DNA of 64,000 nt from Rubrivivax sp. A210 (GTDB lineage Bacteria; Pseudomonadota; Gammaproteobacteria; Burkholderiales; Burkholderiaceae_C). Position 1 is the first letter of the stretch. The number at the start of each line of letters is the position of its first letter. Under the pieces are notes generated by a model. That model searched no databases and was not told the origin of the DNA. It worked only from the letters and a program-made list of their open reading frames with translations. The stretch spans positions 248,001 through 312,000 of the forward strand of contig NZ_CAJGBN010000034.1 of assembly GCF_904426505.1 (NCBI RefSeq), given 5' to 3'. Positions 2,628 to 8,278 of this stretch are shown here, piece after piece. The translations under genes and the position numbers were made by a program.

Positions 2628-2664
2628 TTGTCGACCCAAAAACTTGTCTGATAACCTGATGACA
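2628..2664 (+). promoter_or_regulatory. Possible promoter and operator of the GntR gene
   Basis: A possible -35 (TTGTCG, 2628-2633) and -10 (TAACCT, 2652-2657) are 18 bp apart and would start transcription almost at the ATG at 2664. The stretch 2645-2664 has outer arms TGTC and GACA around a repeated CTGAT. FadR-type regulators often bind short dyads near their own start. Weak evidence by itself. Confidence 0.3.
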
Positions 2665-3431
2665 TGAGCCCTTCCACGCCCGCCGCCCCGGTGCGCGCCG
2701 GCGGCCGTCTCGGCCGCGAGACGCTGGCCGACCGGCTGGCCGCGCTGCTGTCGGCGCAGATCGCCGATGGCGCACTGGCGCCGGGCGACCGCCTGCCCAC
2801 CGAGGCCCAGCTTGCGGCCGCGCACGGCGTCTCGCGCAGCGTGGTGCGCGAGGCGGTACACCGCATCAAGTCGCGCGGCCTGCTGTTGTCGCGCCAGGGC
2901 TCGGGCGTCTACGTCGCCCAGCCGCCGCCGCACCGGCCACTGGAGTTCGATCCCACGGTGCTCGACTCGGTCGACGCCGTGGTACATGTGGTGGAAGTGC
3001 GCCAGGTGCTCGAAGGCGCGATGGCCGGCCTGGCCGCGGCGCGCGCCACCAAGACCCAGGTCACCGGGCTCAAGCGCGCGCTGGCGGCATTGGACGTGGC
3101 GGTGGCCGCCGGCCGCGACGGCGTGGAGGAAGACATGGCCTTCCACCGCGCCATTGCCTCGGCCACCGGCAACCCGCAGTTCAGCCTGCTGCTGGGCTTT
3201 CTGGAGCAATACCTGCGCGAGGGCATGCGCATCACGCGCGGCAATGAGGCGCGTCGGCTCGACTTCATGGAGGCCGTGCGCAAGGAGCACCACCTCATCG
3301 TCGACGCCATCGCCGCCGGTGACGCCGCCGCCGCCCGCCGCGCCGCCGCCCGCCACCTGCTGCACGGCCGTCGCCGGCTCGAGCGCGGCGGCGTGCTCGA
3401 GGCGCCAGCGCCGGCGCGGCGCCGCGCCTGA
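2664..3431 (+). CDS. GntR-family transcriptional regulator, FadR subfamily (FCD domain)
   Basis: DNA-binding repressor or activator of 255 residues. Residues about 18-85 form the GntR winged helix (LPTEAQLAAAHGVSRSVVRE, then a basic wing with SRQGSGVYV). The rest is an all-helical FCD ligand domain; the histidines in FHRAI and in the C-terminal ARHLLHG region are of the kind that bind a metal in this family. It is divergent from the ABC importer and co-directional with denD and an SDR, so it probably controls both arms in response to the imported compound or a breakdown product. No Shine-Dalgarno site is evident before the ATG, so the message may be nearly leaderless. Confidence 0.88.
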   Translation: MSPSTPAAPVRAGGRLGRETLADRLAALLSAQIADGALAPGDRLPTEAQLAAAHGVSRSVVREAVHRIKSRGLLLSRQGSGVYVAQPPPHRPLEFDPTVLDSVDAVVHVVEVRQVLEGAMAGLAAARATKTQVTGLKRALAALDVAVAAGRDGVEEDMAFHRAIASATGNPQFSLLLGFLEQYLREGMRITRGNEARRLDFMEAVRKEHHLIVDAIAAGDAAAARRAAARHLLHGRRRLERGGVLEAPAPARRRA

Positions 3432-3468: not shown

Positions 3469-4503
3469 ATGAAGATTCTCATCACCGGCGGTGCCGGCTT
3501 TGTCGGCGCCCGGCTGGCGCGCACGCTGCTGGCGCGCGGGCAGCTGGCCGGCCGCGAGATCGCGCAGATCGTGCTGGCCGACCAGTTCGCGCCGCCTGCC
3601 GATCTCGCCGCCGAGGCCCGCGTGCAGGCCCGTACCGGCCCGCTGCTGGCCCAGTGCGCGGCGCTGCGCGAGGAAGGGGAAGGGGGGGGCTTCGACGGCG
3701 TCTTCCACCTCGCCTCGGCGGTGTCGGGCGAGTGCGAGGCCGATTTCGAGCTGGGCCTGCGCTCCAACCTCGACAGCACGCGGGCGCTGCTCGATGCGCT
3801 GCGCGCCCGCGCTGATGCCGGCACTCATGCCGGCGCGGCGCCGACCCGCCTGGTCTTCTCCAGCTCGGTGGCGGTGTTCGGCCCCGACCCGGCCGTGCCG
3901 TTGCCGGCGGTGGTGGCCGACGACACGTTGCCGGCGCCGCAGACCTCCTACGGCACGCACAAGCTGATCTGCGAGCACCTGGTGGCCGACTACACGCGCA
4001 AGGGCTACATCGACGGCCGCTCGGCGCGGCTGATGACGGTGACAGTGAGGCCGGGCCGGCCCAATGGTGCCGCCAGCAGCTTCTTCAGCGGCATCATCCG
4101 CGAGCCGCTGGCCGGCGAGGAGGCCATCCTGCCGGTGGCACCCGATGTCTCGCACCCGGTGTCGTCGCCGCGGCGCACGGTCGAGGGCCTGATCGCCGTC
4201 TTTGAAGCCAGCCGCGAGGCCTATGGCGGCCGGCTGGCGCTCAACCTGCCGGCGCTGAACGTCACGGTGCAGCAGATGCTGGATGCGCTGCAGGCCGTGG
4301 CCGGCTCCGCGGTTCGTGCGCGCGTGAAGCCGCAGCCCGATGCGCGCATTGCCGGCATCGTCGCCAACTGGCCGCGCGGCGCCAGCGCGGCGCGTGCCGC
4401 CGGCCTGGGCCTGCAGCCCGAGGCCAGCTTCGAGGACATCATCCGCCAGTACATCGCAGACTGCGCCGCCAGCAATCCGGCGGCATTGAGGGGCATGGCA
4501 TGA
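3469..4503 (+). CDS. denD: NAD-dependent epimerase/dehydratase family protein, DenD-like D-erythronate dehydrogenase
   Basis: Extended SDR of 344 residues. It has the N-terminal nucleotide motif TGGAGFVG (residues 5-12), a catalytic serine in the SSSVAVFG segment, and the Tyr-Lys pair in SYGTHK. DenD enzymes oxidise D-erythronate to 2-oxo-tetronate with NAD, the first step of tetronate breakdown; sequence layout and neighbours fit, but the substrate is inferred. The ATG at 3469 follows a Shine-Dalgarno-like CAAGGA; a much longer upstream frame only overlaps the GntR gene. The stop overlaps the next start (ATGA). A run of eight G at 3682-3689 lies inside the gene. The usual partner genes (kinase, decarboxylase, isomerase) are not in the window. 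Confidence 0.8.
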   Translation: MKILITGGAGFVGARLARTLLARGQLAGREIAQIVLADQFAPPADLAAEARVQARTGPLLAQCAALREEGEGGGFDGVFHLASAVSGECEADFELGLRSNLDSTRALLDALRARADAGTHAGAAPTRLVFSSSVAVFGPDPAVPLPAVVADDTLPAPQTSYGTHKLICEHLVADYTRKGYIDGRSARLMTVTVRPGRPNGAASSFFSGIIREPLAGEEAILPVAPDVSHPVSSPRRTVEGLIAVFEASREAYGGRLALNLPALNVTVQQMLDALQAVAGSAVRARVKPQPDARIAGIVANWPRGASAARAAGLGLQPEASFEDIIRQYIADCAASNPAALRGMA

Positions 4504-5252
4504 ACCAGATCGACCTGAACGGCCGCGTCGCGGTTGTCACCGGCGGCGCCCAGGGCATAGGCCTGGCCATCGGCCAGCGCCTGCTGGCCTCGGGCGCGCG
4601 GCTGCTGATCTGGGACATCGACGCCGCGCGCCTGCAGGCGGCCTGTGACGCTTTGTCAGCGCTGGGCCCGGTGCGCGGCGAGGCCGTCGAACTCACCGAC
4701 GATGCCGCCGTCGCCGCCGCCACGGCCAACGCGCTGCGCATCGACGGGCAGATCGACATCCTCGTCAACAACGCCGGCATCACCGGCGGCAATGCGCCCA
4801 CCTGGGAACTCGACCCCGTGGTGTGGCGGCGCGTGATCGAGGTCAATCTGATCGCGCCCTACCTGACCTGCCGCCATGTCGCGCCTGCGATGGTGGCGCG
4901 CAGTTACGGCCGCATCGTCAACATCGCCTCGGTGGCCGGCAAAGAGGGCAATCCCAATGCCAGCCACTACAGCGCCAGCAAGGCCGGCCTGATTGCGCTG
5001 ACCAAGAGCCTGGCCAAGGAAACCGCGACCAAGGGCGTGCTCGTCAACGCCATCACCCCGGCGGTGGCGCGCACCGCGATGTTCGAGCAGATGACCGAGG
5101 CCCACATCGCCTACATGCTGGGCAAGATACCGATGGGCCGCTTGCTCGAGGTCGAGGAGATCGCGGCCATGGCGGCGTGGCTGTGCAGCGCGGATTGCTC
5201 GTTTTCGACCGGGGCGGTTTTTGATATCACGGGGGGGAGAGCGACGTACTGA
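4500..5252 (+). CDS. SDR family oxidoreductase
   Basis: Classical short-chain dehydrogenase of 250 residues. It has cofactor motif TGGAQGIG (residues 14-21), the NNAG motif, a catalytic serine in IASVAG and YSASK, and the C-terminal SFSTGAVFDITGGR typical of sugar and polyol dehydrogenases. The acidic residue at the end of beta-2 (WDID) favours NAD over NADP. It is translationally coupled to denD through an ATGA overlap, so it probably works on the same pathway, perhaps on a sugar, lactone or keto-acid intermediate. The exact substrate cannot be read from sequence. Confidence 0.87.
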   Translation: MNQIDLNGRVAVVTGGAQGIGLAIGQRLLASGARLLIWDIDAARLQAACDALSALGPVRGEAVELTDDAAVAAATANALRIDGQIDILVNNAGITGGNAPTWELDPVVWRRVIEVNLIAPYLTCRHVAPAMVARSYGRIVNIASVAGKEGNPNASHYSASKAGLIALTKSLAKETATKGVLVNAITPAVARTAMFEQMTEAHIAYMLGKIPMGRLLEVEEIAAMAAWLCSADCSFSTGAVFDITGGRATY

Positions 5253-5270
5253 ACGGTTGGCGATCCCGCC

Positions 5271-5957
5271 TCAACGGTTGGCCCAGCCGCCACTGATTGG
5301 AAAGATCTGGCCGACGAAGCAGGAGGCCGCGTCGCTGCACAGGTAGGCGGCGAACTGGGCGTCCTCCTCGGCGCTCACCAGCCTGCCCAGCGGCACCTCC
5401 CGCTTCAGCCGTTCCTGGAACCGCGGGTTGGCCTGGACCTCCGCGCCGTAGTAGGTGGGGTTGGCGACGAAGTTCTGTGCAATGGCATTGATCTGGATGC
5501 CGTGCTGCACCAACTCCAGCGCGACCGACTGCACATAGGCCAGTTGTGCGCCCCGTGCGGCGCTGTAGCTGCCGGTGCGCTTCTGGCCCCGGAGTGCCGC
5601 GGCGCTGCCCATCACGAGAATGCGGCCACTGCGGCGCTCGATCATCTGCGGCAGCACCGCAGCCACCAGCCTTGGCATCGGGTCGACCAGATGCGCGAAC
5701 ACGGTGCGCCACTCGGCATCGCTGATCTCGCCGGCCGGCGTGCTCGGCGCGGGGAGTGCGAGGTGGATCAACAGCACATCGATCCGCCCGGCCGCGCCAA
5801 CAACGGCGGCAGGCAAGGCCGGATCATCGTCCAGGGCGCGCGGATCGGCGATCACCTCCGCCCCTAGTTGCGAGAAGACTTCATTGAGGGCCGGCCCCAT
5901 GAAGTCGCCCGACTGGGTGAGCAGCACCCGCTTGCCGTCGAGTCTGGTGGAAATCAT
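5271..5957 (-). CDS. SDR-fold protein with halohydrin-dehalogenase fingerprint
   Basis: Protein of 228 residues with the SDR fold but without the cofactor motif TGxxxGIG and without the YxxxK pair. It matches instead both signatures reported for halohydrin dehalogenases: T-x4-F-x-G at the N-terminus (T14, F19, G21), where a halide pocket replaces the cofactor site, and S-x12-Y-x3-R (S118, Y131, R135), the catalytic triad. Such enzymes convert vicinal halohydrins to epoxides without a cofactor. The start at 5957 has a Shine-Dalgarno-like CGGAGTC. It converges on the SDR above with 18 bp between them. If it is not a dehalogenase it is a divergent, cofactor-free SDR relative; function is unproven. 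Confidence 0.72.
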   Translation of the reverse strand: MISTRLDGKRVLLTQSGDFMGPALNEVFSQLGAEVIADPRALDDDPALPAAVVGAAGRIDVLLIHLALPAPSTPAGEISDAEWRTVFAHLVDPMPRLVAAVLPQMIERRSGRILVMGSAAALRGQKRTGSYSAARGAQLAYVQSVALELVQHGIQINAIAQNFVANPTYYGAEVQANPRFQERLKREVPLGRLVSAEEDAQFAAYLCSDAASCFVGQIFPISGGWANR

Positions 5958-6071
5958 CGCTGACTCCGTCTGATCGATTTCATCGTCTGGTGGTCAGTTG
6001 GCCCGCGAGCGGCGGGGCGCTGACCGCGGCGCAGCCCCTATTTCCGCGGGCGCAGCTGGCGCGTGGCCACT

Positions 6072-7034
6072 TCAGCCTATCCGCCCCAGCAGCAAATACT
6101 CCATCAGCGCCTTCTGCACATGCATGCGGTTCTCGGCCTCGTCCCAGACCACCGATTGCGGCCCGTCGATGACCTCGGCCGTGACTTCCTCGCCGCGGTG
6201 GGCGGGCAGGCAGTGCATGAAGAGGGCGTCGGGCTGGGCCACGGCCATCATCTCGGCGTCCACGCACCAGTCGACGAAGGCCTTGCGGCGCTCTTCGTTC
6301 TCGGCCTCGTAGCCCATGCTGGTCCAGACGTCAGTGGTGACGAGGTGGGCGCCGGCGCAGGCCTCGAGCGGGTGGTTGAAGACTTCAAAGCAGCGGCTGT
6401 CGCGGATGCCGGCGGCTTCGGGGTCGACCTCGTAGCCGCTGGGCGTGCTGACGTGGACCTTGAAGCCCAGGATCTCGGCCGCCTGCAGCCAGGTGTTGGC
6501 CATGTTGTTGCCGTCGCCCACCCAGGCCACGACCTTGCCCTGCAGGCATTGCAGCGGGTCGTGGCCGCCGCCGCGCGGGCCGCGGTGCTCGATGTAGGTG
6601 AAGAGGTCGGCCAGGATCTGGCAGGGGTGGTACTCGTTGGTCAGGCCGTTGATCACCGGCACGCGCGAATGCGCCGCAAAGGCCTCGAGCTTGGCCTGCT
6701 CGAAGGTGCGGATCATCACGATGTCGACCATGCGGCTGACCACGCGTGCCGTGTCCTCGGCCGGTTCGGCGCGACCGAGCTGGCTGTCGCCGGCGGTGAG
6801 GTTCACCACCGAGCCGCCCATCTGGTACATGCCGGCCTCGAAGCTCACGCGCGTGCGCGTGCTGGCCTTCTCGAAGATCATCGCCAGCGTGCGGTCCACC
6901 AGAGGCTGGTAGCGCTCGTAGTTCTTGAAGCGCGACTTGATGACGCGGGTGCGCTCGAAGAGGTAGGCGTACTCCTCGGCGCGCAGATCCTTGAACTGGA
7001 GGAAGTGCTTCATCAGGCTGGGGCCCGGCTTCAT
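6072..7034 (-). CDS. argF: Ornithine carbamoyltransferase
   Basis: Cytoplasmic enzyme of arginine synthesis that joins carbamoyl phosphate to ornithine to give citrulline. The 320-residue product carries the carbamoyl-phosphate motif ASTRTR, the HPCQILAD motif, and the ornithine-site FMHCLP motif near the C-terminus. The ATG at 7034 overlaps the argD stop (ATGA), implying translational coupling; a second ATG at 7013 gives the more usual family N-terminus (MKHFLQFKD), and neither has a clear Shine-Dalgarno site. The argD-argF pair is a common arrangement in Burkholderiales. The 114 bp after it, up to the start of the SDR-fold gene, hold no recognisable feature. Confidence 0.96.
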   Translation of the reverse strand: MKPGPSLMKHFLQFKDLRAEEYAYLFERTRVIKSRFKNYERYQPLVDRTLAMIFEKASTRTRVSFEAGMYQMGGSVVNLTAGDSQLGRAEPAEDTARVVSRMVDIVMIRTFEQAKLEAFAAHSRVPVINGLTNEYHPCQILADLFTYIEHRGPRGGGHDPLQCLQGKVVAWVGDGNNMANTWLQAAEILGFKVHVSTPSGYEVDPEAAGIRDSRCFEVFNHPLEACAGAHLVTTDVWTSMGYEAENEERRKAFVDWCVDAEMMAVAQPDALFMHCLPAHRGEEVTAEVIDGPQSVVWDEAENRMHVQKALMEYLLLGRIG

Positions 7035-8278
7035 GCGGTCTCTAGGAGAAAGGTCTTGATCAGCGGGCACAGGATGGCGACGATCTGTGCCGCCTCGTCG
7101 GCGCTCAGGATGAGCGGCGGCACGAGCCGGATCACGCTGTCGGCGGTGACGCTGAGCATCAACCCGGCTTCGGCCGCGCGGCCCAGCAGCACGCCGCAGG
7201 GGCGGGCCAGTTCGATGCCCAGCATCAGGCCGGCGCCGCGGATCTCGGTCACGCCGGCCACGCCTGCCAGTTCGCGTTCGAGCCCGGCGCGCAGGGCCGC
7301 GCCCACGGTGGCGGCATTGGCGAGCAGGCCGTCTTCTTCCATGATTCGCAACGTCTCGACGCCGGCGCGCATGGCCAGCGGGTTGCCGCCGAAGGTGGTG
7401 CCGTGGTTGCCCGGGCCCAGCACGTCGACGGCGCGCTCGCCCACGACGATGGCGCCTATCGGCACGCCCGAGCCCAGGCCCTTGGCCAGCGGCATCACGT
7501 CGGGGCGGATGCCGGCCCACTGGTGGGCAAACCACTTGCCGGTGCGGCCGATGCCGCACTGCACCTCGTCCAGCATCAGCAGCCAGCCGTGCTCGTCGCA
7601 GAGGCGGCGCAGGCCCTGCAGATAGTCCCAGCGCGAGGCGTTGATGCCGCCCTCGCCCTGTATGGTTTCGAGGAAGACCGCCACCACGTCGGGGTTGCTG
7701 CGCGCCACCTCTTCGACCGCGGCGAGATCGTTGAGCGGCACGCGCACGAAACCCTCGACCAGGGGCTCGAAACCCTTTTGCACCTTGGGGTTGCCGGTGG
7801 CCGACAGCGTGGCGATGGAGCGGCCGTGAAAGGCCTTCTCGTAGACGATGACCTGGGGCCGCGCGATGCCGCGGTCATGGCCGTACTTGCGCGCGATCTT
7901 CAGCGCCCCCTCGTTGGCTTCCAGCCCCGAATTGCAGAAGAAGGCCGCCTTCAGGCCCGAGATCTCGCACAGCTTGGCCGCCAGCTGCTCCTGCAGCGGC
8001 ACCTCGTAGTAGTTGGAGCTGTGGATGAGGCGGGCGACCTGATCCTGCAGCGCGGGCACCAGGCGCGGATGGGCGTGGCCCAGGGTGTTGACGGCGATGC
8101 CGCCGAGGCCATCGAGATAGCGTCGGCCCTCGGTGTCCCAGACCCAGCAGCCGCGGCCGTGCGACAGCGCGATGGGCAGGCGGCCATAGGTGTTCATCAC
8201 ATGCGGCATGGGCCGCTGAATCGGCAGAGACGGGGGCTGGGCCGCTTGCTGGGCCAGGGCGGGCTCGGGTGCGTTCAT
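7031..8278 (-). CDS. argD: Acetylornithine transaminase
   Basis: Class III PLP-dependent aminotransferase of 415 residues converting N-acetylglutamate semialdehyde to N-acetylornithine in arginine synthesis. Visible motifs are the phosphate-binding NSGLEANEGALK region, the LDEVQCGIGRTG segment with its cofactor-binding Asp, and the Schiff-base lysine in PLAKGLGSG. The first 23 residues are Ala/Pro/Gln-rich and not typical of the family; a shorter start at the Met of MPHVMNTYGR is possible. It is the first gene of argD-argF and divergent from the DUF3579 gene, with 248 bp between them. Related enzymes also act on succinyl-diaminopimelate, and this could be bifunctional. Confidence 0.95.
   Translation of the reverse strand: MNAPEPALAQQAAQPPSLPIQRPMPHVMNTYGRLPIALSHGRGCWVWDTEGRRYLDGLGGIAVNTLGHAHPRLVPALQDQVARLIHSSNYYEVPLQEQLAAKLCEISGLKAAFFCNSGLEANEGALKIARKYGHDRGIARPQVIVYEKAFHGRSIATLSATGNPKVQKGFEPLVEGFVRVPLNDLAAVEEVARSNPDVVAVFLETIQGEGGINASRWDYLQGLRRLCDEHGWLLMLDEVQCGIGRTGKWFAHQWAGIRPDVMPLAKGLGSGVPIGAIVVGERAVDVLGPGNHGTTFGGNPLAMRAGVETLRIMEEDGLLANAATVGAALRAGLERELAGVAGVTEIRGAGLMLGIELARPCGVLLGRAAEAGLMLSVTADSVIRLVPPLILSADEAAQIVAILCPLIKTFLLETA

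Follow-up and report, generated by a model that had tools for sequence, protein, structure and literature searches.

The question raised by this locus is whether a gene lying beside a sugar-acid locus encodes a halohydrin dehalogenase, and whether its position provides any insight into the substrate of such an enzyme. Halohydrin dehalogenases, cofactor-free enzymes that interconvert chlorinated or brominated alcohols and epoxides, are of interest for biocatalysis, and the first-pass annotation of the DNA considered here (the window, a stretch of 64,000 nucleotides from Rubrivivax sp. A210) proposed one at 5271-5957. The open reading frame is present at this position and lies on the minus strand, which that annotation had not stated. 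We conclude that it is very probably a D-subtype halohydrin dehalogenase gene, a single-gene insertion between the convergent denD-SDR and argF loci that stands outside the sugar-acid pathway. The features on which the argument depends are as follows.

2664-3431, plus strand: GntR/FCD regulator of the sugar-acid locus.
3469-4503, plus strand: denD, D-erythronate dehydrogenase (NF043036, 344.6 bits; cut-off 325).
4500-5252, plus strand: ordinary SDR (TGGAQGIG and YSASK, by sequence scan), the convergent neighbor, part of the sugar-acid locus.
5253-6071, no strand: stretch holding the dehalogenase gene, around which similarity to seven loci of relatives breaks off.
5271-5957, minus strand: putative hheD-type halohydrin dehalogenase gene, 228 aa, with 66% identity to HheD2 (7b73) and 63% to HheD8 (8xxb).
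5553-5606, minus strand: motif 2, S118-x12-Y131-x3-R135, the predicted catalytic triad, read from the protein sequence.
5895-5918, minus strand: motif 1, T14-QSGD-F19-M-G21, the predicted nucleophile pocket that replaces the glycine-rich NAD(P) motif of SDR proteins (motif definition from the portions available of PMC4989007 and PMC11976700).
5964-5967, minus strand: GGAG, resembling a ribosome binding site, 6 nt before the ATG of the dehalogenase gene (read by eye).
6072-7034, minus strand: argF, ornithine carbamoyltransferase, 114 nt upstream of the dehalogenase gene and on the same strand.

No sigma-70-type promoter-like site was found for the dehalogenase gene. The sugar-acid locus also contains a UgpC-type ABC ATPase and a solute-binding protein.

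Both sequence motifs reported by the first-pass annotation, T14-x4-F19-x-G21 and S118-x12-Y131-x3-R135, are exact at the residues it named and occur once each, and its reading that a cofactor motif is absent also holds, with TQSGDFMG occupying the position where the SDR pattern T-G/A-X3-G/A-X-G would be. The protein thus carries the family patterns T-X4-F/Y-X-G near the N-terminus and S-X12-Y-X3-R (at S118, Y131 and R135), and has neither the TGxxxGxG nor the YxxxK of classical NAD(P)-dependent SDR enzymes; the motifs and their SDR counterparts are restated in the available part of PMC11976700. Shuffling of the window protein produced both motifs by chance in 8 of 200,000 permutations, where motif 1 was accepted within the first 40 residues and motif 2 in residues 91-170. 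As controls we used the seven loci L002-L008, taken from 17 other SDR-like matches in the same genome, the adjacent SDR at 4500-5252 included; all seven have the SDR glycine motif with Y-x3-K and none has both dehalogenase motifs, although the reading frame of L008 does contain the motif 1 pattern. Residues T14, F19, G21, S118, Y131 and R135 are invariant across a 39-row alignment consisting of the window protein and 38 proteins chosen from 80 relative loci. Both motifs lie within the aligned stretch in 134 of 137 D-type loci, a set that includes some duplicates; two of the exceptions are aligned only from residue 32 or 60, and the third is L171. A stricter scan of called open reading frames recovered both motifs in 140 of 147 rows, and five of the seven failures pass the aligned-stretch scan. 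L171 (genome G342) is itself a D-type relative with motif 2 intact and with an alteration or shortening around motif 1.

The annotation further assigned the gene, as a new member, to the short subtypes of halohydrin dehalogenase, a placement that our comparison supports and narrows to subtype D. The best PDB match of the window protein is 7b73 (E 1.3e-96, 326 bits) and the second is 8xxb (7.7e-89, 301 bits), which the titles of the PDB entries give as HheD2 and HheD8; HheB (4zd6) is third at 2.6e-47 and 165 bits. Other dehalogenase entries among the matches listed score 61-105 bits (HheA2, 1zmo, 72; HheG, 5o30, 65), a range that overlaps the scores of ordinary SDR proteins except at its highest entry (6a41, 105). 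The comparison with the Hhe types that had been proposed, run here as PDB scores, therefore places the D-types nearest and HheB next, with HheA2 and HheG far weaker. The window protein shares more with known D enzymes (66% and 63% identity) than with other types (43% for HheB), and it is a subtype D protein as judged by its nearest PDB matches, types A, C (HheC, 4ixt) and G being compared by scores only. The generic SDR Pfam families match the protein; among the best 25 of 180 NCBIfam models for it, none was enzyme-specific and none reached its cut-off. The PDB codes of HheA2 and HheG are named as such in the available parts of PMC4989007 and PMC11976700.

The AlphaFold monomer model of the window protein (pLDDT 86.5) has a predicted SDR-type Rossmann fold, as expected for a halohydrin dehalogenase, and its top fold matches are HheD2 (66% identity), HheD8 (63%) and HheB (42%). 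Halohydrin dehalogenases are homotetramers, of which the model covers one subunit. Superposition on 7b73 gives a TM-score of 0.88 and an rmsd of about 3 A, so that the model is moderate only. Values of pLDDT below 50 fall at residues 119-123, directly after Ser118, and at 223-228.

Comparison with individual enzymes indicates how near the protein stands to those already described. HheD2 (identified as the halohydrin dehalogenase of 7b73 in the available part of PMC9629495 and described in that of PMC5892878) is of similar length, has both motifs and no cofactor motif, and shares 66% identity over 223-225 aligned columns; it differs in 34% of residues and in its genomic place, since it follows a gene similar to the GNAT acetyltransferases found in its group of loci. 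The protein of the marine gamma proteobacterium HTCC2207 (L034) is, by eye, identical to the 7b73 stretch. HheD8 (8xxb) shares 63% identity and the same motifs in the printed alignment and is chloride-bound according to its title, but the solved form is a triple mutant. HheD12 from Halopseudomonas pelagia CL-AP6, taken as the L066 gene and placed in subgroup D by PMC6922532 as far as its available text goes, shares 65% identity with the window protein and differs in that an alpha/beta hydrolase gene lies before its own and overlaps it. HheB (4zd6) is likewise a short form with both motifs and about 43% identity, but it represents a separate subtype with Tyr for Phe in motif 1, and it served as the tree outgroup.

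The annotation regarded these enzymes as few, which is outdated for the D-types: the available part of PMC4989007 has names up to HheD38 by 2016. In its accessible text, that study backed its motif search with activity for a selection of 19 enzymes, lists HheD to HheD6 as verified, and gives identities of 57-95% between HheD19 to HheD38 and verified enzymes. Counting one match per genome and including the window genome itself, we found a D-type relative in the same family in 59 of 399 genomes (E <= 1e-40), in the order in 27 of 399 (E <= 1e-60) and in the genus in 31 of 81 (E <= 1e-60). The best match of the window protein, at 84% identity, is from Ideonella sp. A 288, and the identity of the window protein to the other copies in the genus is only 61-80%. 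The window protein is most likely a further member, by its sequence, of an already described subtype, and as such useful but ordinary.

The position of the gene beside the sugar-acid locus is a separate matter. That locus is real, with denD above the NF043036 cut-off; the annotation saw no obvious halogenated substrate in this position and took from it that the natural role may differ. The dehalogenase gene is on the strand opposite to denD-SDR and lies 18 nt beyond the SDR stop. The region following argF was compared in those 73 other genus genomes that have this gene, eight of which offer less than 2 kb past it. Within the compared stretches denD is convergent with argF in 23 of the 73, the SDR is also present in 20, and the dehalogenase gene is found in none. 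Since none of these 73 genomes shares the arrangement beside argF and denD, the place of the gene says little about its substrate, and its sugar-acid neighbors are probably incidental. Membership in the sugar-acid operon was rejected on the grounds of the opposite strand and of absence from the relatives' denD-argF stretch. Overall, argF was found in 74 of 81 genus genomes (own included); the seven without an argF match are outside the site comparison, and three of these (G801, G804 and G835) have a D-type gene.

In seven relatives' loci (L201, L205, L212, L223, L228, L230 and L232, with L201 and L230 from the same genome), similarity to the window ends at 5252-5255 and starts again at 6070-6076, and we suggest that the gene may have arrived between these points as an insertion from elsewhere. 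One of these loci, L228, has an extra 88-nt piece matching 6046-6133 about 100 nt off its main match, and in L232 a 69-nt piece several kb from the site matches 5324-5389 at 74%. Across the genus genomes argF and the SDR match lie between 17 and 4659 nt apart, and the gap between denD and argF is therefore a variable slot; in L199, L200 and L216 a 338-residue open reading frame that looks by eye like an aldo/keto reductase follows argF. When 5200-6120 was scanned for repeats, no clear ones emerged on the flanks of the dehalogenase gene, and repeats at both gene ends were rejected, the region containing only a 21-nt imperfect tandem pair plus short chance-like repeats. The tandem repeat (5249-5290, 76%) runs across the stop codon of the SDR gene and into the dehalogenase gene at its 3' end, and coincides with the end of similarity to the sites that have no dehalogenase gene.

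To describe the contexts of D-type genes elsewhere, 158 loci were examined, of which 155 had a recognized gene (one, L058, was missed, and two glycerol-kinase loci, L175 and L176, were wrongly included). Removal of duplicates left 147 loci, the window's own included, in a sample biased towards close relatives. Linking loci by any neighbor within three genes at >=45% identity, that is at least 45%, gave 90 context groups, a figure inflated by short contigs. The largest group has 14 loci, which by their titles comprise 13 gammaproteobacterial loci and one Magnetospirillum MAG. A conserved D-type neighborhood in general was accordingly rejected, there being this one large shared context with the remainder scattered. 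No same-strand neighbor of more than 110 residues was called within 100 nt in 63 of the 147 loci; the remaining 84 have 96 such neighbors, among which Acetyltransf_1 (GNAT, 14) is the most frequent Pfam family, followed by MFS (5), alpha/beta hydrolase (5), HMG-CoA-lyase-like (4) and glyoxalase (3). We read this as a D-type gene that would work alone and move alone. Horizontal movement is suggested, because the gene is patchy in the genus (31 of 81 genomes), the window protein is only 61-80% identical to the other copies there and the places of the gene change. A plasmid-borne D-type gene was rejected, as tblastn at E 1e-40 gave no match among 72,556 plasmid records. Among the literature matches listed, titles and abstract openings contained nothing on point on natural role, gene transfer or subtypes.

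Several recurrent neighbors were observed within this sample. In about a dozen loci of one gammaproteobacterial group (L018, L020, L022, L023, L029, L034, L037 and L048 among them) a gene with a similar N-terminal part lies just upstream of the D-type gene, overlapping it by 4 nt in L018, L022, L023 and L029. The upstream protein of L018 is a GNAT acetyltransferase, and some of the 14 Acetyltransf_1 neighbors may fall outside this group. The conserved GNAT-type and D-type pair apparently also occurs at L034, before HheD2. A glyoxalase gene is situated 8-25 nt upstream of the D-type gene in L080 (7574-7972), L082 (7591-7983) and L141 (5574-5972), and that of L080 passes the lactoylglutathione lyase cut-off TIGR00068. 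In L041, L051, L055 and L060 the D-type gene is 67-87 nt before an HMG-CoA-lyase-like gene, and in L060 a 665-residue protein that looks by eye like a biotin-carboxylase subunit ends 1 nt before the D-type gene.

The mechanism expected for the protein follows that given for halohydrin dehalogenases in the available part of PMC4989007. By homology, Ser118 would position the hydroxyl of a vicinal haloalcohol and Tyr131, its pKa lowered by Arg135, would accept the hydroxyl proton; the resulting alkoxide would displace the halide to form an epoxide, and the halide would exit through the motif 1 pocket (T14, F19 and G21), which takes the place of the NAD(P) site of an SDR. In the reverse direction, epoxides would be opened by halide, azide, cyanide or nitrite. 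Such an activity may serve to remove haloalcohols or epoxides.

Three other explanations bear on function, and they differ widely in probability. It is extremely improbable that the protein belongs to the neighboring sugar-acid pathway as an ordinary NAD(P)-dependent SDR: the generic SDR Pfam families do match it, and the gene adjoins denD and an SDR, but TQSGDFMG stands where the glycine motif would be and YxxxR where YxxxK would be, the strand is opposite to that of denD, 23 relatives have no such gene in their denD-argF stretch, and the protein is 66% identical to a dehalogenase. A second explanation is compatible with the assignment to subtype D and differs from it in role: the protein would have the dehalogenase fold and would dehalogenate in vitro, with the detoxification of endogenous epoxides or electrophiles, through addition or removal of a small anion, as its natural task. 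We consider this possible, if rather doubtful. It is consistent with the lack of a recognized haloalcohol pathway gene beside the dehalogenase gene, with the absence from the same genome of a match to PF06441 (epoxide hydrolase N-terminal domain), with the glyoxalase gene just upstream in three relatives (L080, L082 and L141), and with the statement, in the accessible text of PMC11976700, that the substrates tested are probably not the natural ones for HheC, whereas the two type II haloacid dehalogenases of the genome would fit the breakdown of haloalcohols and haloacids.

The third explanation concerns glycerol. Here the enzyme would turn 3-chloro-1,2-propanediol into glycidol, which would lead on to glycerol and glycerol kinase, and the window copy would have left an ancestral site next to glpK. 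The window protein belongs to a 12-member sub-clade (FastTree support 0.98, in a tree built without copies under 190 residues such as L180), and four of its 11 relatives there have glpK nearby, a linkage seen in no other of the 147 loci over the stretches examined. The kinase gene is about 35 nt from the dehalogenase gene in L014, 139 nt in L011 and 1038 nt, with one gene between, in L013, the GlpK assignment being confirmed by NCBIfam for all three; in L119 a partial glpK lies 5.6 kb away. On the other hand, seven of the 11 relatives are without glpK over the stretches examined (less than 9.2 kb in three of these), as is L180, the partial copy outside the tree; the best glpK match of the window genome is on another contig (L195), with no dehalogenase in the 15 kb examined around it; and L011, L013 and L014 may reflect one ancestral event, the branching there being weakly supported (0.15). 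A glycerol-linked role is thus unlikely, and we give similarly little credence to the broader proposal that D-types are self-sufficient, cofactor-free solo cassettes moving between unrelated loci (here into the gap between denD-SDR and argF), of which the sub-clade of the window arose beside glycerol kinase with the conversion of 3-chloro-1,2-propanediol to glycidol as its natural reaction. The reading we prefer remains that of a D-subtype dehalogenase gene inserted singly and outside the sugar-acid pathway.

On present sequence evidence, then, the window dehalogenase belongs to a known subtype, and its place is uninformative. It is a clear candidate at 63-66% identity to the solved D-types and therefore useful mainly as a diversity point; HheD, HheD3 and HheD5 are among the more heat-stable of 17 characterized enzymes in the available part of PMC4989007. 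The glpK linkage in close relatives is a modest lead that provides a concrete and cheap natural-substrate hypothesis.

Two further observations concern possible partners of the enzyme. A soluble-epoxide-hydrolase partner in the same genome was rejected in a search that covered the PF06441 type, with no match, and the type II haloacid dehalogenases (L234 and L235, at G000:C23:56711-57325 and 171163-171762) are above the TIGR01428 cut-off. In L066, the alpha/beta hydrolase gene at 7024-8004 overlaps the presumed HheD12 gene by 4 nt and is a candidate epoxide hydrolase partner.
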